Made by a program: the position numbers and the translations under genes
Source of the DNA: Ereboglobus sp.
GTDB lineage: Bacteria > Verrucomicrobiota > Verrucomicrobiia > Opitutales > Opitutaceae
DNA: 64,000 nucleotides
Reading direction: 5' to 3'
Assembly (NCBI GenBank): GCA_029974595.1
Contig: JARKRC010000005.1
Coordinates: 62,001-126,000 of the forward strand
Notes under the pieces: generated by a model
Database searches by the model: none
What the model was told of the DNA's origin: nothing
What the model saw: the letters and a program-made list of their open reading frames with translations, nothing else
Shown here: positions 14,645-42,211 of the stretch, in pieces
Layout of the letters: each line of letters opens with the position of its first letter
Numbering within the stretch: position 1 is the first letter of the stretch

Positions 14645-14846
14645 GCTGTTGATCTGAAGTGAAGTGTTGCGAAAAATGAAGCCTGCAAAAATGCAAACCA
14701 CCTCCCGGTGCGGGGCAACAGTTTAAGCTCCCTCGTCACAAAACGAAAACGCGATTTCGGCACAAAGTGCTTGCGTCCGGCAAAGACACTTTCCTAAAAG
14801 ACGCGTTCTCTTCGCCAATGTCCGGCCTGATGCGGACATTATCGGG

Positions 14847-15066
14847 AGGTTCTTTTCTACACTTTGGCAACACAGGGAAGGCCGTGAAAACCGGCCACAG
14901 TTGCGCTACGGTTACGTATCAGTCCAGACTTCCAGCGTCCGCGATTCGCGGGCGTGGCAATGCCAGTCGGAATCAAGAATCTTGAACTTCCGGTGAAGGC
15001 TAGAAGCGAGGCGGCGACGCCACAAAATGGCGCGCGACACATACGGAGTCCGAACATCTGTCTGCC
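14847..15066 (+). promoter_or_regulatory. Cobalamin riboswitch A
   Basis: The conserved B12-box order is readable: AGGTTCTTTTC near 14847, then GGGAAGGCCGTGAAAACCGG with CACAGTTGCGCTACGGTTACG (14875-14916), and at the 3' end CGGAGTCCGAACATCTG (15044-15060). These match the cobalamin-riboswitch core (GGGAA-GGTGAAA-CC, GC-ACTGTAA-CG and GGAGTC-GAA-CCTG). The element lies upstream of a rightward block of corrinoid and cobalt genes beginning at 15598. It shares near-identical core sequence with the second riboswitch at 42212-42450. The folding and ligand class have not been computed. Confidence 0.9.
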
Positions 15067-15597
15067 TTAAGTTCTCACCCGCCCCCGGCGCGATTGCGCG
15101 CGCCGGACCGGCACAACTTCAACGCAAAAATTGAAGCGTGAGAGTGGCAACTCGGTCCATGCATCCGATGCGTCCCCGCCTGCGGTGTCTTCGCGCGTCT
15201 TCACGCGCGTCCATGTCTCCGCCGCGGCGTCCGCATCCGGCGTTTTCCCCAGGTTTCTGCTCTTGCCTGAAACCAACGCCATGCCACTGCCATCCACTTT
15301 TCCGGCGCGGGCCTCCGCCCGTGTCATTCCCTTTCCAAAACCCGCGAACACATCGCGCCGGCCACGCGCCCGCACGCCCCGCGGCGTCCCCGCCCGCCCA
15401 TACCCCGATTTTCCCGGCTCCGTGCCGGAGTTGCCGAAACACGCGTTCGAGACCACGCTGCGCCGCGCTCGCGGACAGCCATCACTGCTCATCCCGAAAC
15501 GCGAAGGTGTGGAAACCTGGTTTCAGCAATCTCCGGCACGGAGCTTTTTGCGTCCGGGCGGCTGCGTTCCGTCCCGTGAAAACCTTTCCGTTTTCCA
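15067..15597 (+). other. Long leader between riboswitch A and the ExbB-like gene
   Basis: This is 531 bp with no clearly supported gene. One frame is open from a TTG at 15131 and ends in a TGA overlapping the ATG of the next gene (ATGA), which would suit translational coupling, but the product is Arg/Pro-rich, has no recognised domain and no membrane segment, and lacks an ATG or ribosome site at its beginning (first ATG near 15281). It may be expression-platform RNA, a decayed gene or a short lineage-specific protein. No terminator with a U-tract was recognised. Confidence 0.45.
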
Positions 15598-16176
15598 ATG
15601 ACATCCATCGACCAAATCCGCGAAATCTTCCACCAGATCGCCGGCGTGCTCGTCTGGCCCGTGCTTCTCGGGCTCATCGGGCTCGCATGCGCAATGATTG
15701 TCTCGCTCGGGGCGTTCGCGCGCGAGTGGTTTGACCGCAAACGCGGCCGCCGCGCCTCGCTCGAAAACGACCACAACGCGCTCAATCGCGCCGCCGCCGG
15801 CTCCTCGAAAGACATGGAGCTTGCCATGGAAGCCATCCTGCAGGCATCCGGCCGCCGCCGCTGGCGCTCGCTCGGACGCCTCCGTCTCGCCGTGCGCGTC
15901 GGCCCGTCGCTCGGCCTCATGGGCACGCTCATCCCGATGGCCGACGCGCTCCAGGGCCTCGCCGACGGCAACCTGCCCGCGCTCGCCAGCAACATGGTCA
16001 CGGCCTTCGCCGCCACGGTCATCGGCCTGAGCATCAGCGTCACCGCCTACCTCGTCGCCGCCGCGCGCGAGAGCTGGGTGCGCGCCGACAGCGAGGCGCT
16101 CGCCTTCCATGCCGAGCACCTCCTCCGCGAAACCAAAACCGATGCGGAAACCCGCCGCGCCGCACACGCCGCCTGA
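15598..16176 (+). CDS. MotA/TolQ/ExbB-family proton channel protein (HmuU-like)
   Basis: 192 residues with three hydrophobic segments (about 17-40, 100-120, 130-152). The second and third flank the conserved channel signature VGPSLGLMGTLIPM and LASNMVTAFAATVIGLSIS, typical of ExbB/TolQ/MotA proteins, though the protein is shorter than ExbB. It is followed 2 bp later by a DUF2149 protein, then a TonB-dependent receptor and a CobN-like protein. The same gene set is known from the hmu haem locus of Porphyromonas and Bacteroides and, without the receptor, next to cobN-like genes in methanogens. The likely role is to couple proton flow to the adjacent receptor or CobN-like protein. Confidence 0.8.
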   Translation: MTSIDQIREIFHQIAGVLVWPVLLGLIGLACAMIVSLGAFAREWFDRKRGRRASLENDHNALNRAAAGSSKDMELAMEAILQASGRRRWRSLGRLRLAVRVGPSLGLMGTLIPMADALQGLADGNLPALASNMVTAFAATVIGLSISVTAYLVAAARESWVRADSEALAFHAEHLLRETKTDAETRRAAHAA

Positions 16177-16178
16177 CC

Positions 16179-16568
16179 ATGCGCTTCGTCCAACGCACCA
16201 CGCGCCACGCAGCCCACGGCCTCGCTCCCGGCGAAGACGAGGATCCGCTCGCAGGCATTGCCAATCTCTTCGACGTGAGCGTCGCCTTCATCGTCGCGCT
16301 GCTCATCGCGCTCTTCGCGCTTTTTTCCGCGGGCACGTTCCTCGACAAAAACTCCGAGGTCACGCTCGTGAAGACGACCGCCGACGGCGAGACCGAGATC
16401 ATCACGAAAAAAGGCGCGGAGATAAAGGTGCAGAAAGTCACCGACAAAAACCTCTCCGGCCAGGGCACGCGCCTCGGCACCGCCTACCGTCTCGCCAGCG
16501 GCCAGGTCGTTTACGTGCCCGACGAAAACGGCGCGGCGGCGCCCGCCCCGGCCAGCCAGGCACGATGA
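16179..16568 (+). CDS. DUF2149 family protein (HmuV-like), ExbD-like topology
   Basis: 129 residues. A short N-terminus leads into one transmembrane helix preceded by NLFDVSVAFIVALLIALFALF, with an aspartate at the membrane entry as in ExbD/MotB partners. A periplasmic domain of about 80 residues follows (EVTLVKTTADGETEIITKKG, then GTRLGTAYRLASGQVVYVPD). DUF2149 proteins are consistently found beside small MotA/TolQ/ExbB proteins and CobN-like genes, as here, so it is most likely the ExbD-equivalent of the preceding channel protein. The coupling function is inferred, not shown. Confidence 0.8.
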   Translation: MRFVQRTTRHAAHGLAPGEDEDPLAGIANLFDVSVAFIVALLIALFALFSAGTFLDKNSEVTLVKTTADGETEIITKKGAEIKVQKVTDKNLSGQGTRLGTAYRLASGQVVYVPDENGAAAPAPASQAR

Positions 16569-16641
16569 TTTTTCCCGCGCACAGCAAAACCCTTTTCGGA
16601 GGCGGCTACATTGGTCTGTCGGCGCTTCTGAACGCAAAAAA

Positions 16642-16677
16642 GCCGCGGTCGCGCCCGCACAAAAGCGCGACCGCGGC
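16642..16677. terminator. Strong GC hairpin between DUF2149 gene and TonB receptor
   Basis: A perfect 13-bp stem (GCCGCGGTCGCGC at 16642-16654 paired with 16665-16677) with a 10-nt loop. On the + strand it is preceded by an A-run and not followed by T residues; on the - strand it would be followed by TTTTTT. It may partially attenuate the rightward operon, or terminate antisense transcription. Confidence 0.5.
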
Positions 16678-16718
16678 CCTGTCCCCGCCAGCCGCCCCTC
16701 CTGACTTTTTCCCGCCAT

Positions 16719-18641
16719 ATGCATCCACTAAAAACCAACGCCACAAACAGGCATAAAATCGCCGCCGCGTTTTTCGCGGCGCTTGCTTGCTTCTCCGCAT
16801 CGGGCGCCCTTCCCGGGCAGCCGCTGCCGGGATTCGACGAAATCGTGACACTCGACAAAATCAACGTCACCGCCATGCGCGAATCGAAGGATTTCTACGA
16901 AACGCCCGCCTCGACGTTCACGCTCGACCGCGCCGAGATCAAAGCCATGGGCGGGGACAGCGCGTTTGACACCGTGCGTTTTTCCGACGGCGTCGCGATC
17001 GACTCGATGGGCGTCGCCGGGCAGTCCTACGGCGCCATGACGTCGAAGACCGTCATGCGCGGCTCGCGCCGCGGCACGCTCATCCTCATCGACGGCATGC
17101 CCGCCAATAACAACGGCTATTACAACATGGAGGACATTCCCGTGGAAACCATCGGCCGCATCGAGGTTGTGAAGGGCGCGGGCTCCAGCATGTATGGCAG
17201 CGAAGCCATCGGCGGCGTCATCAACATCATCAGCGACTCCTCGCCGGTCAACACCGCCAGCGCCACGCTCGGCGGCAACAAATACCAGAACTTCAGTATC
17301 GCCGTCCGCGAGCCGTGGGCGGTCTGGGGCCAGTCCGGCATGCTCGGCGTCAGCGGGCTCCTCCAGAATCTCGGCAAGGTGCAGCGCATATCGAGCAGCA
17401 AGCTCGGCATGGGCGAGAGCAAGAAATGGATGGGCCGCCTCGACGGCTCCATCGGCCGGTGGAAGGTTTCCTACCAGTATTCGGAAAACAACTACTCGTT
17501 CGACACCTACAACGACGCCAGGACCTGGAATCCCGCCACCATCACCCAGAAGGCGCATTACGACGACACCAAGCACTACATCCGCAGCTCCGGGCGCGGC
17601 GAAAACTGGCAGATCGGCCTCTACGCCAACATCCAGCAGCGCTATGCCATGACCGAGAGAAACCTCCTCGCCACCCGCCAGATCTCCTCCAACAACGATT
17701 ACGACTCACGCGTTTACGGCGGCGATTTCCAATACAGCCTGAAACCCTCGTGGGCCGAATTCCTGCTCGGCGTGAGCGCCTCATACGAGGACTTCACCAC
17801 CCGCAATTATCTCAACAATACCGGAACCGATTCCGACCGCGAAAGCGTCGCCGCCTTTGTGCGCGCCTCGAAGACCTTTGGCGACACCTGGATGGCTGCC
17901 GTCAGCCTGCGCGAATCCTACGTGAGCAGCGGCGACCTGACCGCGTTCACGCCGCAATTCCAGTTGCTGAAAAAGTTTACCAGCAGGTTCAGCGCCTACG
18001 CAAACGTCGGACGCTCGTTCAACATGCCCTCGCTCAACCAGCTCTACGGCCCCACCGGCACCTTGAGCACCTCCAACGCCGACCTCGAGCCCGAGGAGGG
18101 CTGGACATACGAAACCGGCCTGAAATGGCAAAGCGGCAGCACGCTCGCGAGCCTCGCCGTCTTCCACATGGACTTCAACCACATCACCTACGTCGTGCAT
18201 CCCACCGACCCCGACCTGCAGATCCCCATGTCGGTGCCGTTCCAAAACACGGGTGTCGAACTCTCCGTCACACAGAAACTCTCGAAGCACATCGCCCTCG
18301 AAGCCGGCGCCTCCTACGGCAAGCCCGAGGAAAAAGCCACGCCGGGCGGCCCGTGGAATGCCGTTTACGGACGCGTGCAGGCCAATGCCCGCCTCCGCTG
18401 GCAATGGAGCCGCTACTTCGCCTCGTTCAACGTCTCCGTGCTCGCCGATCGCGTTTACGACCGCAAGGACATGACTCCGACGCTCCTCAAGGCCGGCATG
18501 AAGTTCAACGAGCACATTCAGCTCAGCGTCGTCGTGGACAATGTTTTCAACCGCATCGACGTCACCAACCACACCTCGGCCACAACCGCCTATTACTCGA
18601 TGCCGCGCTGGGTGAAAGTGACCCTGACATCGACATTTTAA
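16719..18641 (+). CDS. TonB-dependent outer-membrane receptor (BtuB/HmuR-like)
   Basis: 640 residues. Signal peptide (KIAAAFFAALACFSASGA), then a short TonB-box-like segment (DEIVTLDKINVTA), a plug domain (about residues 60-170, including VMRGSRRGTLILIDGMPANN and VETIGRIEVVKGAGSSMYGS, then EAIGGVINI), and a 22-strand barrel ending in a terminal phenylalanine (KVTLTSTF). The size is close to BtuB and smaller than siderophore receptors. It sits downstream of a cobalamin riboswitch and directly before a CobN-like gene, so a corrinoid or other tetrapyrrole is the most likely ligand. It is 25 bp from the next gene. Confidence 0.88.
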   Translation: MHPLKTNATNRHKIAAAFFAALACFSASGALPGQPLPGFDEIVTLDKINVTAMRESKDFYETPASTFTLDRAEIKAMGGDSAFDTVRFSDGVAIDSMGVAGQSYGAMTSKTVMRGSRRGTLILIDGMPANNNGYYNMEDIPVETIGRIEVVKGAGSSMYGSEAIGGVINIISDSSPVNTASATLGGNKYQNFSIAVREPWAVWGQSGMLGVSGLLQNLGKVQRISSSKLGMGESKKWMGRLDGSIGRWKVSYQYSENNYSFDTYNDARTWNPATITQKAHYDDTKHYIRSSGRGENWQIGLYANIQQRYAMTERNLLATRQISSNNDYDSRVYGGDFQYSLKPSWAEFLLGVSASYEDFTTRNYLNNTGTDSDRESVAAFVRASKTFGDTWMAAVSLRESYVSSGDLTAFTPQFQLLKKFTSRFSAYANVGRSFNMPSLNQLYGPTGTLSTSNADLEPEEGWTYETGLKWQSGSTLASLAVFHMDFNHITYVVHPTDPDLQIPMSVPFQNTGVELSVTQKLSKHIALEAGASYGKPEEKATPGGPWNAVYGRVQANARLRWQWSRYFASFNVSVLADRVYDRKDMTPTLLKAGMKFNEHIQLSVVVDNVFNRIDVTNHTSATTAYYSMPRWVKVTLTSTF

Positions 18642-18666
18642 CACGTAACAAGCTGCGCCCATCACA

Positions 18667-21600
18667 ATGAAATCGTTCGCTCGCATCCCGCTTCTGTGTG
18701 TCGCATTCGTTGCAGCCTGCCCCTGCCCCTCCCGGGCCGTCGCCGCGCAAACACAACCGCACGGCTCCATCTGCATCATGTCCGGCGACACGCATTCGCC
18801 CGCCGCCGTCGGCGCCGTGCGCGAGCTGCTTGCGAGCGACGATTTCAAAAACATCCGGCTCTCGGTCGTGCCCGATCTCGGCGCGACCGAGGCCGACCTC
18901 AAGCGCATCCGCGCCGCCGATGTTGTCATCGTCTATGCGCGCGGACGCGACCGCATCACAACGATAGCCGACGAACTCTCCGCCGTCACCAAACGCGGCG
19001 GCGTCATCTACGTCGTCGGCCCCTCCATTCAGGATGACTTCGACGAGGTCAAGCTCACCCGCGACAAGGAAATCGCCGCCTATTTCAACGCCGGCGGACG
19101 CGCCAATCTCATCCAGATGATCCGCGCCGCCGCCGCGCGCAAACTCGCGCCCGGCATTGTCGTCGAGCCGCCCGTCGCGATTCCCGACTTCGGCTTCTAC
19201 GATGTCGCGAACGCCCGCGTCATCACCAGTTATGACGACTACCGCCGCGACTACATCGCCGCCGCGCCCGCGCAACGCTCCGGACGCCCGTGGGTCGGCG
19301 TCCTGCTTCCGCGCTCCTACATCGAATCCGGCGCCACCGGCACCATCGAAGCCGTCTGCGCCGCCCTCGAAAAACGCGGCCTCAACGTCCTCGCCGGCTT
19401 TTGCGCATCGAACAACAAACTGCTCCGCGCACTCTTCCTCAACACCGACGGCTCCCCGCGCGTGGACGCCTTCGCGAGCCTCTCGCTCAAAATGGGTTTC
19501 TCGCCGCAAATGGTCGGCCCCGCCCTCTCCGAAATCGGCGCGCCCGTCGTCAACGGCATTTCGCTCGGCTCGCAAAGTCGCGAGGAATGGGAAGCCTCGC
19601 CCGTCGGCATTTCCGTGCCCGAACGCTGGTGGCAGCTCAGCGGCCCCGAACTCGCGGGCACGATCGCGCCCACGGTCCTCGCCGCCAAGGAGCGCATCGC
19701 CGACACCGCCACCGGCTCCGCTTACGTCGTGCACGTTCCCATCGCCGGGCGCGTTGAGCAGTTCGCCGAGCGCGTCGCGCGCTGGGTGCGCCTGCGCCAC
19801 GCCGCCGTCGCCGACCGCCGCGTCGCCATCATTTATTACAACTACACCCCCGGCAAAGCCAGCATCGGCGCGTCCTACTTGAACGTTCTTCCACAATCGC
19901 TCTGGCAAATCCTCGAACGCCTCCGCGCCGACGGCTACAACACGACCAATTCCCCAGCCTCATCGGAGTCTCTTTTCAGCGACATCCAGACCTTCGGCAC
20001 CAACGCGCGTCCCGGCGAGGCGGAGGACATGGAGCGTCTCGTGCGCGGCGGCCGCGCCACGCTCTGGCCCGTCTCCGAATATCGCAAACTCTTCGACCGC
20101 CTTCCCGAAAAACTCCGCGCCTCCATCATCGCCAAATGGGGCCAGCCCGAAACCGGCAAAACGATGATCTGGCGCGACAGCACGGGCGCGCCGTTCTTCG
20201 TTTTCCCCACGCATCGCTGGGGCAACGTCCTCTTCGCGCCGCAACCCGTGCGCGGCTGGGGCGAGGACCCGACCGCGTCGTATCACGACCTGCAATTGCC
20301 CGTGCATCACCAATACCTCGCGTTCTACCTCTGGCTGCAAACGCAGTTCGACGCCGACGCCATCGTGCACGTCGGCCGCCACGCTACGCACGAATGGATG
20401 CCCGGCAAGGAAGTCGGCTTCACGCCCGCCGACACGGGCGAAGCGCTCGTCGCCGCCATCCCGCAACTCTACATCTACATCGTCGATGGCATCGGCGAAG
20501 GCTTGCAGGCCAAGCGCCGCGGCATGGCGACCATCATCACGCACATGGTTCCGCCGCTCGACCGCGCCAGCCTCAGTCCCGATCTCCGCGAACTCAAAGG
20601 CCGCATCAACGATTACAACGTCGCCGTCGAAAAAGGCTCCGTCGCCAGCGCCGACACGCTCCGCGAAATCACCGGACGCGCCCAAAAAATGGGCCTTCTC
20701 CTCGACCTCGGCATCACGCCCTCCACGGTCAACGGCGCGCCGGCGCTCACGCACGACCAGCTCGACCAGATTGAAAACCACATCGCCAACATCGGCGACC
20801 GCCTCACGCCCTTCGGCCTGCACACCTTCGGCGTGTCGCCCGGCGAGAAAGCCGCCCGCGCCACCGCCGAGGCCATCCTCGAAGCCGAGAGTGAATCCAA
20901 GGACGCAGGGTCGGGTGGCACGGGCTTCCAGCCCGTGGGTTCGGGTCGCATGGGCGTCTCGCCCATGCCTGCATCCACGACTTCCACAAAATCTACCATG
21001 CGCCACGCACGCGAGGTCGGGACACCCGTGTCACCCAATTCACGCGGGCGAACCGCCGATACCACGCCCCCCGCCGCCCCCGTCCTCACCCGCGACCAGC
21101 GGCTCGCCGATCTCATCTCCCGCATCACCGCCTCCGGCCCCGCCGAACTCGACGCGCTCTCCGCCGGACTCGCCGGGCGCTACATCCCCGCCGGTCCCGG
21201 CAACGACCCCGTGCGCCAGCCCGATTCGCTGCCCACCGGAAAAAATTTCTACGGTTTCGATCCCACGCGCCTGCCCACGCGCGCCAGTTACGCGACCGGC
21301 GCGCGCCTCGCCGGGGAACTCGTTGAAAACTACCGCGCCAAGCACAACGGCGAATACCCCGACCGCCTCACCTTCAACCTCTGGAGCGGAGAAACCAACC
21401 GCCATGAAGGCGTGATGGAGGCGCAGATTTTCGCGCTCCTCGGCGTGCGCCCGGTCTGGAACAACTACGGACGCGTTGACGATATTGAGCTCATTCCGCG
21501 CGCCGAACTCGGACGCCCCCGCATCGACGTCACCGTCGCGCCCTCCGGCCTCTACCGCGACGCGTTCCCCGTCCTCATGAACCTCATCGACAAAGCCGTG

Positions 21601-22767
21601 ACGCTCGCCAAAGCCTCCCCCGAAACCGACAACGTCGTCGCGCGCAACATCGCCGCCACGCGCGAGGAGCTCGTCTCGCGCGGCGTCCCCGCCGATGAAG
21701 CCGAGCGCCTCGCCACCGTGCGCATCTTCACCGTGCCCGTCGGCGCCTACGGAGCCGGCATCGAAAAAGTCATCACCGACGACAAGGGCTGGAGCAACGA
21801 ATCGCAGGTCGCCGATGTTTTCATGAACCGCATGGCGCACCTCTTCGGGCAGGGCTTCTGGGGCGAGGAGCCTCCCGCCGCCGCGAAAGACCCGGAGATT
21901 CGGAAGCACATTTTCCGCCTCGCGCTCAAAGGCTCGAAAGGCGTCATCCACAGCCGCTCTGGATCCGTGTATGCCACGCTCGACATCGACGATTTCTACC
22001 AATACCTCGGCGGCACCGCCATGGCCATCCGCCAGATCGACGGCAAAACGCCCGAAACCTTTGTCACCGACATGAGCATGCCGCGCATTGCCAAGACTGT
22101 GACGCTCGAACGCTTCATGGGCCAGGAACTCCGCGCCCGCTATCTCAACCCGAAATGGGTCGATGCCATGCTCAACGAGGGCTACGCCGGCGCGCGCTTC
22201 ATCATGCGCATGACCGACAATCTCTGGGGCTGGCAGGTCACCGTCCCCGAGGCCGTCGGCAACGAGAAATGGCAGGAAATGTTCGAGGTGTATGTGCAGG
22301 ACAAATACAACCTCGACGTCCGCGCCCGCTTCGAGAAAGCCGGCAATCTCCACGCCTATCGCGAAATGGTGGATCGCATGTTGGTCGCCGTTGACAAGGG
22401 CTACTGGCAGGCCGCGCCCGAAACCGTCGCCGCGCTCCGCGAGGCCTCGGAAAAAGCCGCGCAACAAATCGCCGCCGCGGAAAAAGTGGAAATGGAAAAA
22501 CTCCGCGAAACCGCGCCTCTCCCCAACCTCGGCCCCGCGCCCGCCGTCACTCCGCCGCCGCAACCCGCCGCGCCTCCGCCGCCCGCCAGCGCGCAACCCG
22601 CATCGCCGCAAACGCAGCAAGTCGAGGGCAAGGCGCTCGAAGACGTTTCCAAAAAAAACGCGCCCGCCGCCGCATCCCCCGCCTGGCCGCTGCGCCTCTT
22701 CCTCGGCCTCGCCGCCATCGCCGCCTTGTTCCTTTTCGGCTGGTTCCGCCAGTCCCGCGCCCGATGA
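18667..22767 (+). CDS. Secreted, membrane-anchored CobN-like protein (HmuS-like)
   Basis: 1366 residues of the CobN/BchH/HmuS family. Unlike cobaltochelatase it has an N-terminal signal peptide (ARIPLLCVAFVAACPCPSRA) and a C-terminal proline/alanine linker followed by one transmembrane helix (RLFLGLAAIAALFLFGWF) and a basic tail, so the catalytic body should face the periplasm, held to the inner membrane. The family core motif reads VHVGRHATHEWMPGKEVGF where the cytoplasmic paralog at 23784 has VHFGKHGTLEWLPGK. Conserved blocks DGIGEGLQAKRRG, GRYIPAGPGNDP and GKNFYGFDP are intact. Residues about 747-800 are a non-family insertion encoded by palindromic repeats. HmuS of Bacteroidetes is associated with metal removal from haem; here the riboswitch context points to corrinoid. 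The reaction is not known. Confidence 0.85.
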   Translation: MKSFARIPLLCVAFVAACPCPSRAVAAQTQPHGSICIMSGDTHSPAAVGAVRELLASDDFKNIRLSVVPDLGATEADLKRIRAADVVIVYARGRDRITTIADELSAVTKRGGVIYVVGPSIQDDFDEVKLTRDKEIAAYFNAGGRANLIQMIRAAAARKLAPGIVVEPPVAIPDFGFYDVANARVITSYDDYRRDYIAAAPAQRSGRPWVGVLLPRSYIESGATGTIEAVCAALEKRGLNVLAGFCASNNKLLRALFLNTDGSPRVDAFASLSLKMGFSPQMVGPALSEIGAPVVNGISLGSQSREEWEASPVGISVPERWWQLSGPELAGTIAPTVLAAKERIADTATGSAYVVHVPIAGRVEQFAERVARWVRLRHAAVADRRVAIIYYNYTPGKASIGASYLNVLPQSLWQILERLRADGYNTTNSPASSESLFSDIQTFGTNARPGEAEDMERLVRGGRATLWPVSEYRKLFDRLPEKLRASIIAKWGQPETGKTMIWRDSTGAPFFVFPTHRWGNVLFAPQPVRGWGEDPTASYHDLQLPVHHQYLAFYLWLQTQFDADAIVHVGRHATHEWMPGKEVGFTPADTGEALVAAIPQLYIYIVDGIGEGLQAKRRGMATIITHMVPPLDRASLSPDLRELKGRINDYNVAVEKGSVASADTLREITGRAQKMGLLLDLGITPSTVNGAPALTHDQLDQIENHIANIGDRLTPFGLHTFGVSPGEKAARATAEAILEAESESKDAGSGGTGFQPVGSGRMGVSPMPASTTSTKSTMRHAREVGTPVSPNSRGRTADTTPPAAPVLTRDQRLADLISRITASGPAELDALSAGLAGRYIPAGPGNDPVRQPDSLPTGKNFYGFDPTRLPTRASYATGARLAGELVENYRAKHNGEYPDRLTFNLWSGETNRHEGVMEAQIFALLGVRPVWNNYGRVDDIELIPRAELGRPRIDVTVAPSGLYRDAFPVLMNLIDKAVTLAKASPETDNVVARNIAATREELVSRGVPADEAERLATVRIFTVPVGAYGAGIEKVITDDKGWSNESQVADVFMNRMAHLFGQGFWGEEPPAAAKDPEIRKHIFRLALKGSKGVIHSRSGSVYATLDIDDFYQYLGGTAMAIRQIDGKTPETFVTDMSMPRIAKTVTLERFMGQELRARYLNPKWVDAMLNEGYAGARFIMRMTDNLWGWQVTVPEAVGNEKWQEMFEVYVQDKYNLDVRARFEKAGNLHAYREMVDRMLVAVDKGYWQAAPETVAALREASEKAAQQIAAAEKVEMEKLRETAPLPNLGPAPAVTPPPQPAAPPPPASAQPASPQTQQVEGKALEDVSKKNAPAAASPAWPLRLFLGLAAIAALFLFGWFRQSRAR
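20909..20970 (+). repeat. Palindromic repeat pair inserted in frame in the cobN-like gene
   Basis: Two adjacent hairpins: GGCACGGGCTTCCAGCCCGTG and, after GGTTCGGGTCG, CATGGGCGTCTCGCCCATG. The encoded insert (GSGGTGFQPVGSGRMGVSP) keeps the frame open. A degraded additional unit follows at about 21011-21050. It lies in a loop between GLHTFG and GRYIPAGP. Confidence 0.8.
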
Positions 22768-22797
22768 ACACGACGCATGAAAGCATCCGGAGAGCGC

Positions 22798-22868
22798 GCG
22801 CGTCTCGCGTGCGGTTGCCGGCGTCCCGCCGGCAACTTCCCCAAAGGCGACGGCGGGACGCGTGCGCT
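22798..22868. repeat. GC-rich hairpins between cobN-like gene and cobO
   Basis: The 166-bp gap contains GTTGCCGGCGTCCCGCCGGCAAC, a near-perfect palindrome about GTCCC, followed by an inverse CGGCGGGACGC. It belongs to the CGGCGTCCCGCCG hairpin class also present at 23617-23770. It is intergenic and probably a small mobile palindromic element or a transcript-stability structure. Confidence 0.55.
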
Positions 22869-22933
22869 CCTCCCATATTCGTAATTTTTCGCTGATCCAA
22901 AAAATCGCGCCCTCTCATTTCCGACAGACCAAA

Positions 22934-23572
22934 ATGGAAACAGAAAAAACAAACCACGCCTCACCGCCCGCCCCTTCCGCCGACGCCCACCGCCAGCGCA
23001 TGGCCCGCCGCAAGGAAATCCAGGACCAGCGCATCGCCGCCACGACCGCCGACAAGGGACTCATCATCGTCCACACCGGCCCCGGCAAAGGCAAAACCAC
23101 CGCCGCGCTCGGCATGGTGCTCCGCTCGCTCGGCCACGGCTACCGCGTCGCCCTCGTGCAATTCATCAAGGGCGCATGGGAGCCCGCCGAGAAAAGAGCC
23201 TTCGCGCACTGGGGCGAACAGCTCGCTTTCCACGCGATGGGCGAAGGTTTCAGCTGGATAACGCAAGACCGCGAACGCGACATCGCCGCCGCGCAAAAAG
23301 CCTGGGAAACCGCGCTTCGCTACATCGTGAATTCCGACTGCCGCCTCATTCTCCTCGACGAAATAAACGTCGCCCTCCGCCACGGTTATCTGACCGTGCA
23401 ACAGGTTCTCGACGGCCTTGCCGAGAAGCCCGCGCTTACACACGTCATCCTGACCGGACGCGGCGCGCCGCCCGAGCTCATTGCCCGCGCCGATCTCGTC
23501 ACCGAAATGACCGCGGTAAAGCACCCTTTCAAGGACCAGCGCATCCGCGCCCAGCCGGGCATCGAATACTGA
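22934..23572 (+). CDS. cobO: Cob(I)yrinic acid a,c-diamide adenosyltransferase (CobO/BtuR type)
   Basis: 212 residues. The P-loop is HTGPGKGKTTAALGMVLRS (about residues 47-65), followed by VALVQFIKG, a family-typical WITQDRERD, and LILLDEINVALRHGYL with the Asp-Glu of the nucleotide site. The C-terminus HVILTGRGAPPELIARADLV is the usual end of the family. It transfers the 5'-deoxyadenosyl group of ATP to cob(I)alamin or its precursor. The ATG at 22934 gives the normal length; an in-frame start at 22862 adds 24 unmatched residues. It sits between the two CobN paralogs. Confidence 0.93.
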   Translation: METEKTNHASPPAPSADAHRQRMARRKEIQDQRIAATTADKGLIIVHTGPGKGKTTAALGMVLRSLGHGYRVALVQFIKGAWEPAEKRAFAHWGEQLAFHAMGEGFSWITQDRERDIAAAQKAWETALRYIVNSDCRLILLDEINVALRHGYLTVQQVLDGLAEKPALTHVILTGRGAPPELIARADLVTEMTAVKHPFKDQRIRAQPGIEY

Positions 23573-23616
23573 TGGACGCCAAGAACAAACAAGTGCGCGA
23601 AGAACGCGTGCGACAA

Positions 23617-23770: not shown

Positions 23771-23783
23771 TCAAAAACATCTC

Positions 23784-26700
23784 ATGAGCGCCGCGTCCAG
23801 CATCATCCTCCTTTCGCACGCCGAGACCGATCTCCTTGCGCTCGATCGCACCCGGCCGCGCCTGCCCGCCGGCTTCCCCAAAATCGCAGGCCATTCACTC
23901 AACGCCATCCGCGAAGACGCCGAGCTCGCCGCGCTTCTCGCCCCGGCGTTCGCCGCCGCGTCGCGTTGCGTCATCATCGCGCGCATCCACGGAAAACTCT
24001 CCGGCGTCCCCGGCCTCGCCGCGCTCGCACAAAGCGCGCGCCAGCCGGGCGCGACCTTCGACCTCATTGCCATCAGCGGCGTCGAGGACGCCGATCCCGC
24101 CCTAGCCGACGCCTCCACCTGCGCGCCATCCATCGCCGCGACGCTCACGGCTTACTTCATGTCCGGCGGCATGGACAACATCACCCAGGCCCTTCGCTAC
24201 CTCGCGTGCCACTGCCTTGGCACATCGCACACCTTCACGCCACCCGCGCCCATGCCGGCGCACGGCCTCTATCACCCCGACCTCCTCGTCACCACGCCCG
24301 GCGAATGGCGCGACCACCGCCCCGCCGGCGCGCCGCTCGCGCTCGTCGTTTTTTATCGCGCGCACGTCCTTTCGGGAAATCTCGATTTCATCGACCGCAT
24401 CATTCGCGTCCTCGAAAAACGCGGCATGGCGGCCATCGGCGCGTTTACCACATCGCTCCGCGATTGCGACGCGAACGGCATCCCCTCTGCACTCTCGCTC
24501 GCAGGCGAGCCGCCCGACGTGATTGTCAACACCGTCAGCTACCCGCTCACGCAACCCGACGCGGGCTCGGGTGGCATGGGCTGCCAGCCCATGTCTGCGG
24601 CCAATCCCTTCGCTCAAATCGACGCGCCTGTGCTCCAAGCCATCGCCTGCGGCTCGACGCGCGATTCATGGCTCGCCTCCGCGCGCGGACTCAGCCCGAC
24701 GGAAACCGCGGTCAACATCGCGCTCCCCGAGTTCGACGGGCGCGCCATCACCGTTCCTGTTTCATTCAAGGAAAACCATCGCTACATCCCCGACGACGAA
24801 CGCATCGCCCGCGTCGCCGGCATCGCCGCGCGCCTCGTTGCGCTGCGTCGCAAGCCCGCCCGCGAAAAACGCATCGCCATCATCCTCACCAACAGCGGCG
24901 GCAAGGCGCAGAAAGTCGGCGGCGCGGTCGGCCTCGACACGCCCGCCTCGCTCCTTCGCGTCCTCGACGCCCTCCGCTCTCAAGGCTACGCCATCCCACC
25001 CTTCAAGGGCACCTCCGACGATCTCTTCGCCAAGCTGCTCTCGCGCGGCTGTTACGACGAAAAATATCCGCTTCGATTGAGTGATGCCCATGCGTATCCA
25101 CGTTCCGAATACGTTGCGTGGTTCCGCACGCTGCCCGCACCGCTGCAAACCCATATGTGTGAAACGTGGGGCGAGCCACCCATGCGCGGCCATGCCGCCG
25201 CGCCCGTGCGCTGGACCGCCGTCGGCAAGGATTCGACGAAACGCCTCCTGCCGCTCGCGGACGAACCGCACACCGACGACACGCATTTCCATTTTGCCGC
25301 GCTCGAACTCGGCAATGTCCTCATCGCGCTCCAGCCGCCGCGCGGCTTTGGCATGAATCCCGACGCGATTTACCACGCCACCGACCTCGTACCCACGCAT
25401 CACTACGCAGCCTTTTACCGCTGGCTCGACGCCGGCTGGCGGGCCGACGCCATCGTGCATTTCGGAAAACACGGCACGCTCGAATGGCTTCCCGGAAAGT
25501 CCGTCGCGCTCTCCGCCGCCTGCGCGCCCGACGCGCTCCTCGGCGACCTGCCGCTCTTTTATCCCTTTGTCGTGAACGACCCCGGCGAAGGCGCGCAAGC
25601 CAAGCGCCGCGCCCACGCCGTCATCATCGACCACCTCGTCCCGCCGCTCACGCACGCCGACCTTCACGGCCCCGTCGCCACGCTCGCGCGCGTCATCGAG
25701 GAATACTACCGCGCCGAGGCGCTCGATCCGGCGAAACTCCCGCTTCTCCAGTCCCAAATTTGGGAGCTCGTGCGCAGCGCGCGCCTTGTTGACGATCTGC
25801 GCGAAATCCGCCGCCAGCGCCACGGCGATCACACACACGAATGGGACGAGCGCCCCGGCGAATCCGGCGTGCCGCGTTCCCTTGAAAAACTCAACGCGCG
25901 CGGCATGGCGCACCTCGTCGAGGACCTCGACGCCTATCTCTGCGAACTCGGACGCGCCCAGATCCGCCACGGCCTGCACATTTTCGGCCAGCCGCCGGAG
26001 GGCGACGCGCTCGTCGATATGCTTTTCGCGCTCACGCGCTATCCGAACGGCGACATCCCCGCATTGAGTGGCATCGGATCGGGTGGCACGGACGACTCGT
26101 CCGTGGGGTCGGGTAACATGGCCGACTCGGCCATGTCTCCTGAACACGGGCGGGTCGCCCGTGCCACTCAATCCGCGCAATCCGACGAGGCCGCCCGCGC
26201 TCTCATTCGCGCTCTCATCCAAGGCAAACTTCCATCGGACACCGCTTCATCACCTCACACCCGCATCCTCAACTTCATCACCGCCACGCTCGTCCCCAAT
26301 CTTGCGCGCACCACGGATGAAATCACCGCGCTCCTTCGCGCCCTCGACGGACGCTACATCCCCGCCGGCCCGTCCGGCGCGCCGAGCCGCGGCATGGCGC
26401 ATGTGCTCCCGACCGGACGCAACTTCTACAACGTCGATCCGCGCGCGCTTCCCTCGAACGCCGCGTGGACTGTCGGGCAGGCGCTCGCCCGCGACGCCAT
26501 CGAGCGCCACACTGCCGAGACCGGCTCGCCGCCCGAAAACATCGCGCTCAGCGTCTGGGGCACTGCGACCATGCGCACTGGCGGCGACGAAATTGCGCAA
26601 GCCCTTGCGCTCATCGGAGCGCGCCCGCGCTGGAGCGCCGACACGCGCCGCACAACCGGTTTTGAAATCATCCCGCTCGCCGAACTCGGACGCCCGCGCA

Positions 26701-27620
26701 TCGATGTGACCTTGCGTGTGAGCGGTTTTTTCCGCGACGCATTCCCGCAGCTCATGCGCTTGTTCGACGACGCCGTGCGCGCCGTCGCCGCGCTCGACGA
26801 ATCCGCCGAGCAAAATCACGTGCGCGCGCACTGGCTCGCCGAAACCGCCGTGCTTGTCGGCGAAGGCATCGAACCCGCCAATGCGCGCCGCCGCGCGGGC
26901 TACCGCGTTTTCAGCTCCAAGCCCGGCGCCTACGGCACGGGACTGCTCGACCTCATCGAGACGCACAATTGGCGCGGCACCGACGATCTCGCGCGCGCCT
27001 TCCTTGTCTGGGGCGGCTGGGCCTACGGCGCGGACACCCCCGGGGGCGCCGAGGCCACCGCCGATTTCCGCAGACGGCTTTCCACCATCGACCTCGCGCT
27101 CCACAATCAGGACAACCGCGAGCACGACATCTTCGACTCCGACGATTATTTCCAATTTCAAGGCGGACTCATTGCCGCCATCTCCGCGCTTTCCGGGCGC
27201 AAGCCGCGCGCGTATTTCGGCGACAGCTCGGACGCCGCGCGTCCCGTCAACCGCACGCTTCAGGCCGAGGCGCTCCGCGTCCACCGCACGCGCGTGACAA
27301 ATCCCAAATGGCTCACGGCCATCCGCCGCCACGGTTACAAAGGCGGGCTCGAAATGGCCGCGACCGTCGATTACATGTTCGGCTACTCCGCGACCTCCGG
27401 AGTCATCACCGACTGGATGTATGAGGACGTCGCCGAAAATTACACCAAGGGCGAGTCCCGCGATTTTCTCCAGCACTCAAATCCCTGGGCGCTCCATGCC
27501 ATTGCCGAGCGCATGCTCGAAGCCAGTCAGCGCGGCCTTTGGGATGCCCGGTCCGAAACACTCGCGCACCTCCGCGAAACCCTCCTTTCAACCGAAGCCG
27601 CCCTCGAATCCGCCACATGA
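23784..27620 (+). CDS. cobN: Cobaltochelatase large subunit CobN
   Basis: 1278 residues, cytoplasmic (no signal peptide or membrane helix). It contains the canonical family motif [18 protein letters not shown] at about residues 562-579, [71 protein letters not shown] and the C-terminal [15 protein letters not shown]. With ATPase partners it inserts Co2+ into hydrogenobyrinic acid a,c-diamide. The next gene overlaps its stop by 4 bp and encodes the ATPase/VWA partner. Two repeat-derived insertions are visible (about residues 260-272 and 760-797), the second at the same loop as in the secreted paralog. The ATG at 23784 is the first that excludes repeat-coded sequence. Confidence 0.9.
   Translation: [1278 protein letters not shown]
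24563..24600 (+). repeat. Single palindromic repeat in frame in cobN
   Basis: GGGTGGCATGGGCTGCCAGCCCATG: one hairpin unit of the family, coding [12 protein letters not shown] within a loop after SYPLTQPD. Frame is preserved. Confidence 0.7.
26062..26172 (+). repeat. Triple palindromic repeat in frame in cobN
   Basis: Three hairpins in a row, with stems centred near 26093 (CACGGACGACTCGTCCGTG), 26128 (CATGGCCGACTCGGCCATG) and 26155 (CACGGGCGGGTCGCCCGTG), joined by GGGTCGGGTAA and TCTCCTGAA. The insert codes a Gly/Ser/Asp-rich loop and leaves the frame open. Confidence 0.8.
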
Positions 27621-29545
27621 AACCTCCGCCGCCATTTCCCTTCACCGCCATCGTCGGGCAGGACGAACTCCGTCTCGCGCTCCTCCTCAACGCCATCGAC
27701 CCGCACATCGGCGGCGTGCTTATTCGCGGCGAACGCGGCACCGCCAAAAGCACCGCCGCCCGCGGGCTCGCCGCGCTGCTGCCTCCACGCGAAAACGACG
27801 ATCCGCCGCCCTTCGTCGAACTCCCGCTCGGCGCGACCGAGGATCGCGTCACGGGCACGCTCGATCTTGAATCCGTCCTGCGCGAAGGCCTCCGCCAGCT
27901 CCGTCCCGGCCTCCTCTCGCAAGCCGACGGCGGCGTGCTCTACGTGGACGAAGTCAACCTGCTCCCCGACCACCTCGTCGATCTGCTCCTCGATTCCGCC
28001 GCGAGCGGCAGCGTGCGCATCGAGCGCGACGGCATTTCAGAAACGCTTCCCGCGCGCTTCATCCTCATCGGCAGCATGAACCCCGAGGAAGGCGAACTCC
28101 GCCCGCAATTCATCGATCGTTTCGGTCTCTGCGTCCACGTCACCACGCCCTCGGAAAGCGAGCCGCGCATTGAAACCATCCGCCGCCGCCTCGCCTACGA
28201 AACCGCTCCCGAAACCTTTGTCGAAAACGAGACCCGCGCGGAAAACGAACTCCGCGAACGCATCGCCGCCGCGCGCGCGCGGCTCAACGCGATCCCGCTT
28301 GATGAAACGACGCTCGCCCAGGCCGCCTCGCTTTGCGTCAGCATGAAACTCGACGGCGTGCGCGGCGACCTCGCGCTCGTCCGCACCGCCCGCGCCATCG
28401 CCGCCTGGGAAAACGCCGTCGCGATCACGGATGCGCACATCCGCCAGGCCGCGCGTCTCGCGCTTTCGCATCGCAAACGCAAAAAACCCTTCGAGCCGGT
28501 GGGAGGTTCGAGCGGCAGCGGGTTGGGCGGCATCCACGACTCGTCCGTGGGGTCGGGTGGCATGGGCTTCCAGCCCATGTCTTCTGAACACGGGCAGGAT
28601 GCCCGTGCCACTCAACCCTCGCAATCAGCGCCTCCCAACCAGCCCGCGCCCGCCGCTTCCTCCGCCGGAGCAATCCACGTCGCGCTCGAAGCCCAAGCTC
28701 CAAGAACGCCCAACGCCGGACGCCGCGACGACGGCGCGCTGGCGCGCGGCGGCGTCATCCGGGCCGTGCCTCTCCGCGACGGCGACGGCGGCGCGCTTGC
28801 GGTCGCGCCCACCCTGACCGCCGCCGCGATGCGCAGCGGATTGAGTGGCACGGGCGACCCGCCCGCAGGTTCGGGTGGCATGGGCTTCCAGCCCATGTCT
28901 TCTGAACACGGGCAGGATGCCCGTGCCACCCAACCCGCCGCCTTCGCGCTCACTCTCCTCCGCGAAGACCTGCGCCGCCACGAGCGCGCCAAACGCGGCG
29001 CGGCACGCGTGCTTTTCATCGTGGATGCAAGCGGCTCGATGGGCGCGCAACGCCGCCTTTCGCTCGCGAAGGGCGCGGCCACGGGTTTGCTCACCGGCAG
29101 CTACCAGAAGCGCGATGAAGTCGCGCTCATGGTGTTTCGCGGCGAGAGCGCGGAGCTGCTGGAAACCTTCACGCGCGATGTTGACCGCATCGAACGCGCC
29201 TTGCGCGACGTGCCCACCGGCGGACGCACGCCGCTCGCATCCGCGCTCGCCACCGCGGCCCCTTATCTGAACACGCAAGGCCCCGCGTTCCTCGTCCTCT
29301 TCACCGACGGGCGCGCCAATGTCCCGCTGAACCCCGGCGGCGATCCATGGCGCGACGCGCTGGACGCCGCGAGCCAGCTCGCCCCGCTTGCGACCGGCGC
29401 GCTCGTCGTCGATTGCGAAACCGGCGCCATCACGCTCGGACGCGCCCGCGAACTTGCCGGCGCGCTCGGCGCCGAATGCGAGCCGCTTGCCGCGCTCGAC
29501 GAACCTTCGCTCACCCTGCGCATCCGCAAACAAACCACCGCCTGA
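27617..29545 (+). CDS. ChlI/ChlD-type chelatase subunit: AAA+ ATPase fused to VWA domain
   Basis: 642 residues. The N-terminal AAA+ domain has Walker [18 protein letters not shown] (about residues 39-55), Walker [19 protein letters not shown] (about 104-121) and the sensor segment [18 protein letters not shown]. The C-terminal VWA domain carries the MIDAS motif [12 protein letters not shown] (about 471-482) and [13 protein letters not shown]. This is the BchI/BchD or CobS/CobT equivalent in one chain, and partner of the CobN just upstream (ATGA overlap). The linker of about 165 residues between domains is enlarged by two repeat insertions (about residues 303-334 and 408-440). Confidence 0.88.
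28525..28618 (+). repeat. Triple palindromic repeat in frame in chelatase ATPase gene
   Basis: Hairpins CACGACTCGTCCGTG, CATGGGCTTCCAGCCCATG and CACGGGCAGGATGCCCGTG in series, with GTCTTCTGAA between the last two. They code [20 protein letters not shown] in the ATPase-VWA linker. Confidence 0.8.
28840..28936 (+). repeat. Second triple palindromic repeat in frame in chelatase ATPase gene
   Basis: Begins GGATTGAGTGGCACGGGC and repeats the CATGGGCTTCCAGCCCATG and CACGGGCAGGATGCCCGTG hairpins identically to the copy 300 bp upstream. It also lies in the interdomain linker, and the frame is again preserved. Confidence 0.8.
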
Positions 29546-29595
29546 CGCACCGCATTTCATTCCAAAATCGAAAATCCAAAATCGAAAATAACATC

Positions 29596-30282
29596 ATGCA
29601 CATAATGGAAGGTTATCTCCCCGTGACGCACGCCATCGGCTGGACGGCCGCAACCGTGCCGTTCCTGGGCTACGGCATCAAAAAACTCGGCGCGCAATTG
29701 CGCAAACATCCCGAAAACCGCCTGCTCCTCGGCGCGAGCACGGGCTTCGTCTTCGTGCTCTCATCGCTGAAAATCCCGTCTGTCACGGGAAGCTGCTCGC
29801 ACCCGACCGGCATCGGTTTCGGCACGACGCTCTTTGGCCCCGGCATCATGTTTGTGTCGGGTTTTGTCGTGCTGCTGTTTCAGGCGCTCCTGCTCGCGCA
29901 CGGCGGGCTCACCACGCTCGGCGCAAACACGTTTTCGATGGCAATCGTCGGCGGGCTTGTCGCGTGGGGCGTGTATCGCGCGGGCGCGACCCTGCGGCTG
30001 CCGTTTGCATTGAGCGTGTTTCTTGCGGCGATGCTCTCGGACCTCGCCACGTATGTGACGACTTCGCTCCAGCTCGCGCTCGCGTTTCCCGACCCCGCAG
30101 GCGGCTTCGCGGCATCGGCGGTGAAATTCCTGTCCATCTTCGCGCTCACGCAAATCCCGCTCGCGATCATCGAGGGGCTTCTGAGCGTTTTTGTGATGAA
30201 CTTGTTGCGCGCCCATGCCGCCCAGCAACTCGCCGCGCTTTCGATTCCCGCCGCCCAATCCTCGACAAAAACAAATCCATGA
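29596..30282 (+). CDS. cbiM: Cobalt ECF-type transporter substrate-binding subunit CbiM
   Basis: 228 residues, multi-pass. The N-terminus is Met-His-Ile-Met-Glu-Gly, with the second-position histidine needed for cobalt binding in CbiM; this decides the start at 29596. Family motifs [17 protein letters not shown] (residues about 56-72) and [18 protein letters not shown] are present, the conserved His-containing loops of cobalt importers. It moves Co2+ across the inner membrane together with CbiN, CbiQ and CbiO, which follow in that order. It overlaps cbiN by 4 bp. Confidence 0.95.
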
Positions 30283-30572
30283 AACGCCAAAACATTCTTC
30301 TGCTTCTCGCGTGCGTCGCCATTACCGTCGCGCCGCTGCTGTTCATCAAATCGGGCGATGAAAAAAAGGAAATCTTCACCGGGGCCGATGGTCAGGCCGA
30401 GGGTGTGATTTCGAAAATATCGCCTGATTACAAACCGTGGTTCGAACCGTTTTGGGAGCCGCCGAGCGGCGAAATCGAAGGCCTGCTCTTCGGTCTGCAG
30501 GCAGCGATCGGCGCGGGGCTGATCGGCTATTGCATCGGCTTCTATCGTGGGCGCGGCGCCGCGAAAGAGTGA
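30279..30572 (+). CDS. cbiN: Cobalt transporter accessory subunit CbiN
   Basis: 97 residues with the CbiN layout: N-terminal helix ([17 protein letters not shown]), a short periplasmic part containing [19 protein letters not shown] and [20 protein letters not shown], and a second helix ([20 protein letters not shown]). It joins CbiM in loading cobalt. ATGA overlap with cbiM. Confidence 0.93.
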
Positions 30573-30690
30573 AAGGTGAAGAGTGAAGTGTGAAAACAAC
30601 CGAAAAAACTCAACGGATTCACGCACACATGAATAACACACGCATCAGCGTCCCCTGATTTTCACTCTTCACCTTTCACACTTCACTCTT
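30569..30690. repeat. 19-bp inverted repeat between cbiN and cbiQ
   Basis: GTGAAAGGTGAAGAGTGAA (30569-30587), overlapping the cbiN stop codon, is exactly inverted at 30661-30679. Copies of the GTGAAGTGTGAA unit flank both arms. The element fills the only gap inside the cbiMNQO set and looks like a small repeat insertion. Confidence 0.65.
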
Positions 30691-38446: not shown

Positions 38447-38452
38447 GGAATT

Positions 38453-39427: not shown

Positions 39428-39446
39428 GGCGGTTGTCGGGGTGTTT

Positions 39447-39983: not shown

Positions 39984-40013
39984 GGGATTTTGGGTGTGAA
40001 AACCGAGTTCGAT

Positions 40014-40994: not shown

Positions 40995-41030
40995 GGTAAT
41001 GAAATGGCGCGGGAGTTTGTCTTGCGGCGC

Positions 41031-42047: not shown

Positions 42048-42211
42048 GATGGTTGTCTCTCCTGTTTGATGTAAGAGCAGGCAAATCCATCGCGCGGGCG
42101 GGCCGGATTGCGGCCGCTGGTTCGATGCACAACTGCTCCCACGCTTCATTTTTGCGATGAAGTTTTTCGTGATTGGCGCGCGCAAAAATTTCGCGCCAAA
42201 CGCGTGAGCGT

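Follow-up and report, generated by a model that had tools for sequence, protein, structure and literature searches.

A Riboswitch-Led Gene Run of Ereboglobus with an Anchored BtuS-Type CobN-Like Protein and an ExbB/DUF2149 Pair: A Candidate Cobalt or Corrinoid Acquisition Operon

1. Introduction

What would a class I chelatase do outside the cytoplasm, and which partner would an ExbB-like proton channel drive when it is encoded beside both such a chelatase and a TonB-dependent receptor (TBDR)? These questions are raised by a stretch of 64,000 nucleotides from Ereboglobus sp. (Opitutaceae, Verrucomicrobiota; contig JARKRC010000005.1, positions 62,001 to 126,000), hereafter the window, where a cobalamin riboswitch, an ExbB-like protein, a DUF2149 protein, a TonB receptor, a CobN-like protein, CobO, CobN, a ChlI/D-type protein (ChlID), CbiM, CbiN, CbiQ, CbiO and a CobW-like GTPase follow each other in a single direction (plus strand, 14830-33804; Table 1). 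Our analysis points to a CobN-like protein of an anchored clade separate from both cytosolic CobN and HmuS, whose usual companion seems to be the ExbB/DUF2149 pair. We tentatively favour, at somewhat less than an even chance, a cobalt or corrinoid acquisition operon in which a proton-driven periplasmic chelatase or dechelatase would feed cobalt to CbiMNQO and CobN.

Parts of this picture were advanced by earlier work. BtuS was set apart as a third type of CobN by Rodionov et al. in 2003, as cited in PMC6460266, a paper that describes for it a predicted exported and anchored topology like that of the window protein and in which the name was later applied to haem loci of B. fragilis, unlike the B12 context of the window; the accessible part of that paper mentions neither a motor role nor metal swapping. 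In Bacteroidota, hmuR, hmuS, hmuU and hmuV likewise encode a TonB receptor, an anchored CobN-like protein (HmuS, PDB 9D26), an ExbB-like protein and a DUF2149 protein, and the available sections of PMC12583661 report that B. theta HmuS demetallates haem, that its H538A mutant is inactive and that His538 and His1209 are the facing residues of the site. HmuV was earlier termed ExbD-like, and HmuT and HmuV were proposed as diagnostic of haem transport (PMC10100974). In the cobalamin field, pSZ77 of Geobacter lovleyi was described as carrying a cobN-exbBD-tonB block next to genes for cobalamin (PMC3403914), and for Chlorobaculum tepidum a speculation has cobalt inserted into a corrinoid after its import (cited in PMC8620254). 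The initial annotation of the window, made from its letters, held that such a system was undefined for corrinoids, which stands only in part, as BtuS, pSZ77 and the Chlorobaculum speculation, in the portions of those sources available, predate it. What is already known is the BtuS/HmuS family; new here are its B12 and nickel branches and the argument for a motor that works without a receptor. According to our literature search, the only exported CobN-like proteins with a tested function are the haem ones of Bacteroidota (HmuS, BtuS1/2), whose ExbB/DUF2149 partners have so far been interpreted either as energising the receptor or as specific to haem. The same search, covering few subscription papers, found no paper linking an exported CobN-like protein to nickel, nor one assigning ExbB/DUF2149 to a chelatase in place of a receptor.

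2. An Anchored CobN-Like Protein Apart from CobN and HmuS

The CobN-like protein starts with a signal peptide (MKSFARIPLLCVAFVAACPCPSRAVAA, about residues 1-27, read by eye), continues with the class I chelatase domains and a Pro/Ala/Gln-rich linker, and ends in a transmembrane (TM) anchor at about 1338-1362 followed by the basic stretch RQSRAR. Both the export signal and the anchor had been pointed out in the initial annotation and are seen in the sequence; the periplasmic location that it gave to the chelatase domains is predicted from hydropathy, which, and not a trained predictor, underlies all our anchor and export calls. With the CobN model TIGR02257 the protein reaches 584 bits, below the cut-off of 822, whereas the cytosolic CobN of the same run passes (Table 1), and the two share 31% identity. 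The latter, encoded with ChlID (23781-29545), belongs to the same class I chelatase family but is soluble, has an ATP motor and falls in the other clade.

Two trees support this separation. A branch with SH-aLRT 99 splits anchored (28 rows) from soluble (12 rows) CobN-family proteins in a maximum-likelihood tree of 40 rows, and a FastTree of 121 rows, which omits L015 as a copy of the contig of L012, places the window protein in a clade of 41 rows that holds nine riboswitch-linked and five nickel-linked ones, with the HmuY-linked HmuS falling in a different, 24-row clade. The comparison with HmuS that the initial annotation had proposed thus leaves the window protein outside the HmuS clade; nor does the protein cluster within cytosolic CobN, since it stands on the anchored side of both trees. 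A misplaced cytosolic CobN was rejected on the sub-cut-off score, the anchor and the position in the tree. Its nearest named relatives are encoded in metagenome-assembled genomes (MAGs) of Opitutaceae. Because both trees put the riboswitch-linked L055 beside the soluble clade, the anchored set may be paraphyletic.

A close-up view of the active site, aligned through stretches of HmuS, equates window His572 with HmuS His538 and Asp1109 with His1209. At the HFG(T/A)HG motif of HmuS the window reads HVGRHAT, with the equivalent of His538 present and VGR in place of FG(T/A); the LSLDHxxEFMGG motif (His1209, Glu1212) is missing, the window reading LDIDDFYQYLGG, and Q1198, W1202, H1209 and E1212 are replaced by S, Y, D and Q. 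Equivalents of His506, His534 and His538 are kept in all ten riboswitch-labelled and all five nickel-labelled tree rows, the His1209 position being Asp in 10/10 and 4/5 of them, respectively, while the HmuY-linked rows (3/3) carry the full HmuS residue set, including His1209. The window protein therefore appears to keep the catalytic His and to lack the second haem ligand, and from its sequence we take it to be neither cytosolic CobN nor HmuS but a member of a separate anchored clade. An export signal, a C-terminal anchor and a riboswitch with cob/cbi genes in one run, the marks of BtuS, are all found here, which suggests a protein of that type.

A second module was observed in the same family (L009:6026-11012), with ExbB and DUF2149 proteins 74% and 91% identical to those of the window and a CobN-like protein only 31% identical. 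The latter carries Asn at the catalytic His538 position and Ser at that of His506, and forms a clade with L061, L062, L059, L063, L064, L030 and L091; Asn at the His538 position occurs in 7 of the 53 tree rows labelled 'pmf_other'. Such modules apparently combine the same motor with a non-catalytic head.

3. The Partner of the ExbB/DUF2149 Pair

The ExbB-like protein of the window shows conserved GTLIP and ATVIGL stretches and a remote PDB match to ExbB (E 0.0013). Across 93 DUF2149 sequences, the acidic residue of the TM helix (Asp32 in the window) is Asp in 92 and Glu in one, with Pro23 and Asn29 invariant, a pattern that looks like the TM motif of ExbD. Neither a PDB profile search nor hhalign nor a fold search, however, supported DUF2149 as a proven ExbD homologue (see Section 6); in two AlphaFold2 runs, the TM helix was the sole confident part.

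To see what the pair accompanies, CobN-family proteins were surveyed in 136 loci holding 132 open reading frames (ORFs) of at least 900 residues, of which ten truncated ones were dropped and 122 counted. Names of neighbouring genes come from BLAST matches to a reference set built with the window and the fetched loci, and unmatched genes stay nameless. The CobN-like gene of L087, split over two ORFs, lies outside both counts, and that of L024 was missed by the ORF caller. Loci L149-L185 were retrieved via DUF2149, and several DUF2149 loci (e.g., L151, L155, L160-L163, L178 and L185) lack a CobN-family ORF of 900 residues. When an ExbB-like or DUF2149 gene lay within 2.5 kb, 73 of 74 CobN-family proteins were anchored (one of them, L015, from the second copy of a contig), the exception being L020, with a hydropathy of 1.44 just below the cut of 1.6. 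With ChlID at that distance none of 18 was anchored, and with neither motor, 10 were anchored and 20 unanchored. No protein among the 122 had both motors within 2.5 kb, and the window holds both kinds side by side, the anchored CobN-like protein with the pair and the soluble CobN with ChlID. The association of anchor and motor is strong as a pattern but weak as a set of independent events, as related loci are counted, and its Fisher's value of 3e-18 is overstated because the trait follows nearly one deep split.

A TonB receptor seems dispensable for the occurrence of the pair. For 38 of the 74 pair-linked proteins, a receptor gene is absent within 4.5 kb, and no Plug domain was found in seven genomes with the pair and a receptor-free locus (controls: 45 in the Ereboglobus genome, 19 in G099), an absence weakened by the fact that these are mostly MAGs whose completeness is not given. 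Six of the seven are archaeal and one is labelled Clostridiales; ExbB is present in all and DUF2149 in six, the locus of L045 ending inside ExbB at a contig end. In four of them (L042, L047, L048 and L055) the trio is complete and its CobN-like protein anchored, whereas no anchor was seen in the CobN-like ORF of L045. Since no plug domains were found in these pair-bearing genomes, the pair probably serves the CobN-like protein; judging from these gene neighbourhoods, it can occur without a detected TonB receptor, and its usual partner would be an anchored chelatase-like protein. Proton-driven corrinoid import, one of the roles that the initial annotation offered for the whole set, is for the same reason probably not the best reading of the pair. 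The window receptor itself need not depend on the pair, because its genome encodes seven ExbD and 23 TonB_C matches elsewhere. L144, L031, L027, L034 and L177 have an ExbB-ExbD of their own next to the module, in most cases together with TonB.

Other Verrucomicrobiota loci (L159, L164, L181, L182 and similar ones) encode anchored HmuS-like proteins, in these four 37-39% identical to Bacteroides HmuS. The same four carry ExbB, DUF2149 and membrane proteins of about 240 and about 145 residues, and a receptor gene is absent within 4.5 kb; neither membrane protein had a Pfam match in L181, the one locus checked.

4. A Divergent Riboswitch and a Counterpart in Another Genus

That a cobalamin riboswitch leads the block, as the initial annotation had it, we accept on position and core motifs, for no RF00174 match ahead of the ExbB-like gene reached the Rfam gathering level (23.6 versus 31.5 bits) and a relaxed threshold was needed. 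The match spans the whole model (E 0.001 in the 1101 bases searched, 9e-4 in the genome) and sits 519 nt before the ExbB-like gene. In an alignment with 19 other elements judged by eye, the element shared the core motifs, and the closest elements were the second one of the window and the two of G048, a genome from another Opitutaceae genus. The operon of G048 has its own full-length match (29.6 bits, also below the cut-off) about 640 nt before the ExbB-like gene. Because of this counterpart at a matching position and of the core motifs, the element is taken as real despite its score.

The homologous run of G048 encodes a receptor, CobN-like protein, CobO, CbiM and CobW with 71%, 77%, 82%, 85% and 70% identity, respectively. 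It also includes ExbB, DUF2149 and, by eye, CbiQ, CbiO and an extra CobB/CbiA-like gene between CbiO and CobW; its CobN and ChlID were not called by the ORF finder.

Eleven loci have a riboswitch ahead of the module on its own strand (the window, L010, L021, L023, L025, L026, L027, L032, L046, L055 and L087), with a further ORF before the receptor in L021, L023, L027 and L032; L026 comes from Azospira oryzae DSM 21223. In the genomes scanned with RF00174 (16 loci), six had a riboswitch within 9 kb upstream versus 0.08 expected, the 9-kb limit having been picked after viewing the loci. Scores from our own model R1 are not independent for the window and L010, whose elements were among those used to train it. 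The module is rare: among 95 relatives DUF2149 turned up in 4, and among 387 genomes of the phylum in 39 (the Ereboglobus genome is in both counts). The control of this search, the archaeon Methanosarcina acetivorans, which has no outer membrane, also carries DUF2149.

5. Metal Contexts of Related Modules

Outside Opitutaceae the closest relatives are tied to nickel. The sister group of the Opitutaceae branch in the 121-row tree is formed by L016, L017, L018 and L019, and NikR genes above curated cut-offs stand beside L017 and L018. In L018, the gap that separates the module from a divergent CbiM gene holds two GTAATAC-N14-GTATTAC dyads (3245-3312) with 0 and 1 mismatch (none in 200 shuffles), a spacing that we take to be that of NikR boxes. 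One more dyad was found in L016 (2 mismatches) and single matches with 3 mismatches in L019, L145 and L009, against a background of two matches with 3 mismatches or fewer over the 182,695 bases that nine comparison loci comprise. L017, L033 and L190 had none, so that NikR control in L017 and L190 rests on gene neighbourhood. In L033 a NicO gene directly precedes the receptor; in Runella, a receptor, a NicO-like permease (below the Pfam cut-off), ExbB, DUF2149 and the CobN-like gene lie between hypF and hypC; and p4 of Azospirillum brasilense carries CobN-like, ExbB, DUF2149, ABC and receptor genes and nikR. In view of these relatives, a role in metal handling is no less likely than one in corrinoid import. 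Before ExbB, where other loci have the TonB receptor, L017 (7824-9050) and L018 (3951-5135) encode a protein of some 400 residues; that of L018, the one checked, is DUF3344.

Other contexts widen this panorama. The TBDR, CobN-like, ExbB/D-like and DUF2149 genes of P. aeruginosa PA1922-PA1925, which we liken to the window from published descriptions, are Zur-linked (PMC4542158, PMC9431628, PMC11761036, PMC8531726) and differ in their Zur control and their association with zinc starvation (PMC4542158, PMC9431628). The pSZ77 locus of Geobacter (Trichlorobacter) lovleyi (L144) has, as the window does, a TBDR, ExbB-like, DUF2149 and CobN-like (42% identity) genes among cobalamin genes, but differs by a DUF2162 permease and its own ExbB-ExbD-TonB. 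HmuY-linked modules represent the haem context, and some loci (e.g., L191 and L192) show no clear metal. The B12, nickel and zinc contexts speak against DUF2149 as a diagnostic of haem transport.

6. A Proposed Mechanism and Its Alternatives

The operon reading is built on the gene set, the riboswitch, the predicted export signal and anchor, the clade, the kept catalytic His and the pairing of motor and anchor. Scarce cobamide would switch the operon on through the riboswitch. The TonB receptor, driven by the ordinary TonB-ExbBD of the genome, would then bring cobalt into the periplasm as a complex (most likely a metal tetrapyrrole), and there the anchored BtuS-type protein may release or exchange the metal at its class I chelatase active site. 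The ExbB-like/DUF2149 proton motor would power the anchored protein, standing in for an ATP motor such as ChlI/D or CobS/T. Freed Co2+ would enter via the CbiMNQO of the same gene run, to be used by CobW, the cytosolic CobN-ChlID and CobO; cobalt uptake by CbiMNQO and its use by these proteins is a standard pathway. In this scheme we infer the co-transcription, the direction (metal removal), the substrate and the energy coupling. A single transcript for 15598-33804 is likely, although an 18-pair hairpin at 16639-16680, a possible attenuation or processing site whose T-run appears only in the minus-strand reading, separates DUF2149 from the receptor gene and makes co-transcription uncertain.

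Besides that hairpin, the single deep split behind the anchor statistics and the MAGs behind the missing plug domains, several observations weigh against this proposal. With hhalign, DUF2149 and ExbD gave 12% over 19 columns, aligned at the TM Asp only (control 2%), and the AlphaFold2 model of DUF2149 (mean pLDDT 63.7) had no Foldseek match at 0.001. In the 121-row tree, the anchored L013, L055 and L090 fall on the soluble side and the unanchored L045 on the anchored one. Asp at the His1209 position, found likewise in the cytosolic CobN of the window, is no mark of CobN function, since 14 of 18 ChlID-linked rows have His there. In two Methanolliviera loci (L051:6488-9096 and L054:16652-19299) the pair stands beside an anchored BtuF-like protein, with a soluble full-length CobN upstream, so the pair may also drive other anchored binding proteins. 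Modules with a cobalt transporter alongside were seen only in the window, in the homologous operon of G048 and, in the form of CbiMN, in L027. Since a corrin ring gives up its cobalt only with great difficulty, the substrate would have to be a corrin carrying the wrong metal or some other complex of cobalt. Experiments on metal removal come from the haem branch and from no B12- or nickel-linked member, and even for the haem proteins the evidence is mixed: protoporphyrin was still made in B. fragilis when both btuS1 and btuS2 were mutated (PMC6460266), and in the part seen of PMC13227078 the authors working on P. gingivalis state that catalytic metal removal has not been unequivocally proved; the same paper notes that HmuT, HmuU and HmuV may influence HmuS activity. 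The sections of PMC12583661 at hand describe HmuS as active in vitro with NADH and no motor, which leaves a motor role unproven.

A serious if unlikely alternative is corrinoid salvage, in which the receptor would import corrinoids that are incomplete, lack a metal or carry the wrong one. In the periplasm the anchored protein would bind them or strip off the wrong metal and, after passage through BtuFCD, the cytosolic CobN-ChlID would insert cobalt. The Ereboglobus genome (96.4% complete) has no match to CbiC and only two to TP_methylases, which makes it very probably unable to build the corrin ring, and yet it retains CobN, ChlID, CobO, CobQ (named by eye in L218) and late salvage genes, so either cobalt goes into a corrin from outside or CobN is used otherwise. 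This combination of auxotrophy and a retained cobaltochelatase keeps salvage alive, as do the CobB/CbiA-like gene of G048 (by eye), the nearby BtuFCD cluster with its own riboswitch and a receptor whose closest solved structure is BtuB (plug part, 8.5e-15) and whose best model among the 24 listed is TIGR01779 (BtuB), at 107.6 bits versus a cut-off of 599.7. The close relatives linked to nickel, however, need no ring, and the CbiMNQO of the run points to free cobalt. Nor is ring loss the rule: CbiC, searched in 23 genomes (two of them, G001 and G003, without the module), is absent from 15 of the 21 carriers but present in six, four of which have a riboswitch-preceded module (G098-G101), and a strict link between module and ring loss was rejected.

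Quite improbable, in our estimation, is that the pair energises the TonB receptor only, with a CobN-like protein as free of a motor as HmuS is in vitro. This role was proposed for HmuU/HmuV of hmu (PMC10100974 and PMC12583661, as far as available), and in the window the receptor and the pair are encoded together; it is weakened by the seven genomes in which no plug was found, the pair-linked proteins lacking a nearby receptor, the canonical ExbD and TonB encoded elsewhere in the Ereboglobus genome and the separate ExbB-ExbD beside other modules. Finally, a haem-iron operon placed by chance behind a cobalamin riboswitch, suggested by four families that are those of hmuR, hmuS, hmuU and hmuV, was rejected as very improbable on the clade and the replaced active-site residues of the CobN-like protein, with no HmuY- or HmuT-like gene seen in the run and cobalt genes downstream; the resemblance to hmu noted in the initial annotation holds for the gene set, which is identical, but not for the order, which here is ExbB-DUF2149-receptor-CobN-like.

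7. The Gene Run and Its Surroundings

The cobalt and cobalamin genes that the initial annotation had announced downstream of the block were borne out by CobO, CobN, ChlID, CbiMNQO and the CobW-like protein (Table 1). In the second corrinoid cluster, models for BtuF, CobU and CobD matched under their cut-offs, and BtuD, BtuC and CbiB were named by eye from the sequence. A pattern scan of 14700-34600 gave one promoter-like site (2.2 expected) and, on both strands, 35 terminator-like sites (22.6 expected, SD 5.3), neither used as evidence. Similar in-frame stretches inside the BtuS, CobN and ChlID genes (~20980-21080, 26060-26200, 28500-28620 and 28850-28960, approximate coordinates from the ORF list) look like a short repeat element invading coding sequence.

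Table 1. Features of the corrinoid and cobalt region, in window coordinates.
Feature	Position	Strand	Basis
Cobalamin riboswitch aptamer, divergent Opitutaceae form	14830..15079	+	RF00174 full-length, 23.6 bits
ExbB/TolQ/MotA-like channel protein (HmuU-type)	15598..16176	+	PF01618 8.5e-13
DUF2149 protein (HmuV-type), one TM helix with Asp32, then small outer domain	16179..16568	+	PF09919 2.2e-27
TonB-dependent receptor, plug and barrel	16719..18641	+	PF07715 and PF00593
Putative BtuS-type CobN-like protein, 1366 aa	18667..22767	+	PF02514 1001 bits
CobO/BtuR corrinoid adenosyltransferase	22862..23572	+	TIGR00708 241.8 bits, above cut-off
Cytosolic cobaltochelatase CobN, C-terminal anchor absent	23781..27620	+	TIGR02257 1109 bits, above cut-off
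ChlI/ChlD-type AAA+/VWA motor subunit of CobN	27620..29545	+	TIGR02442 592.7 bits, below cut-off 779
CbiM, cobalt ECF S component	29596..30282	+	TIGR00123 268.5 bits, above cut-off
CbiN-like protein	30279..30572	+	Named by eye: sequence and place between CbiM and CbiQ
CbiQ, cobalt ECF T component	30699..31448	+	TIGR02454 118.3 bits, above cut-off
CbiO, cobalt ECF ATPase	31441..32271	+	TIGR01166 258 bits, above cut-off
CobW/COG0523 GTPase, possible cobalt metallochaperone	32449..33804	+	TIGR02475 187 bits, below cut-off 332
Second corrinoid cluster: BtuD, BtuC, BtuF, CobU, CbiB, threonine-phosphate decarboxylase (CobD/CobC)	36600..42386	-	
Cobalamin riboswitch of second corrinoid cluster	42200..42441	-	RF00174 40.6 bits, above gathering

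8. Implications for the Family

Beyond this locus, a wider proposition can be made, which we regard as plausible but rather doubtful: a class I chelatase may have been exported and re-motored, with the ExbB/DUF2149 proton motor in place of AAA+ subunits, and reused as one periplasmic machine for different metals, regulated through haem/iron, Zur, NikR or a B12 riboswitch, with or without TonB receptors and also in archaea. If true, loss of DUF2149 or a change of its TM Asp would stop metal release even where no TonB receptor exists. The presence of cobN-like genes in cobalt, nickel, zinc and haem contexts would then be explained, and, if the B12- and nickel-linked relatives share the chemistry of the haem proteins, the family would represent a general, proton-gradient-driven way of stripping or swapping the metals of imported complexes before they reach the cell interior.

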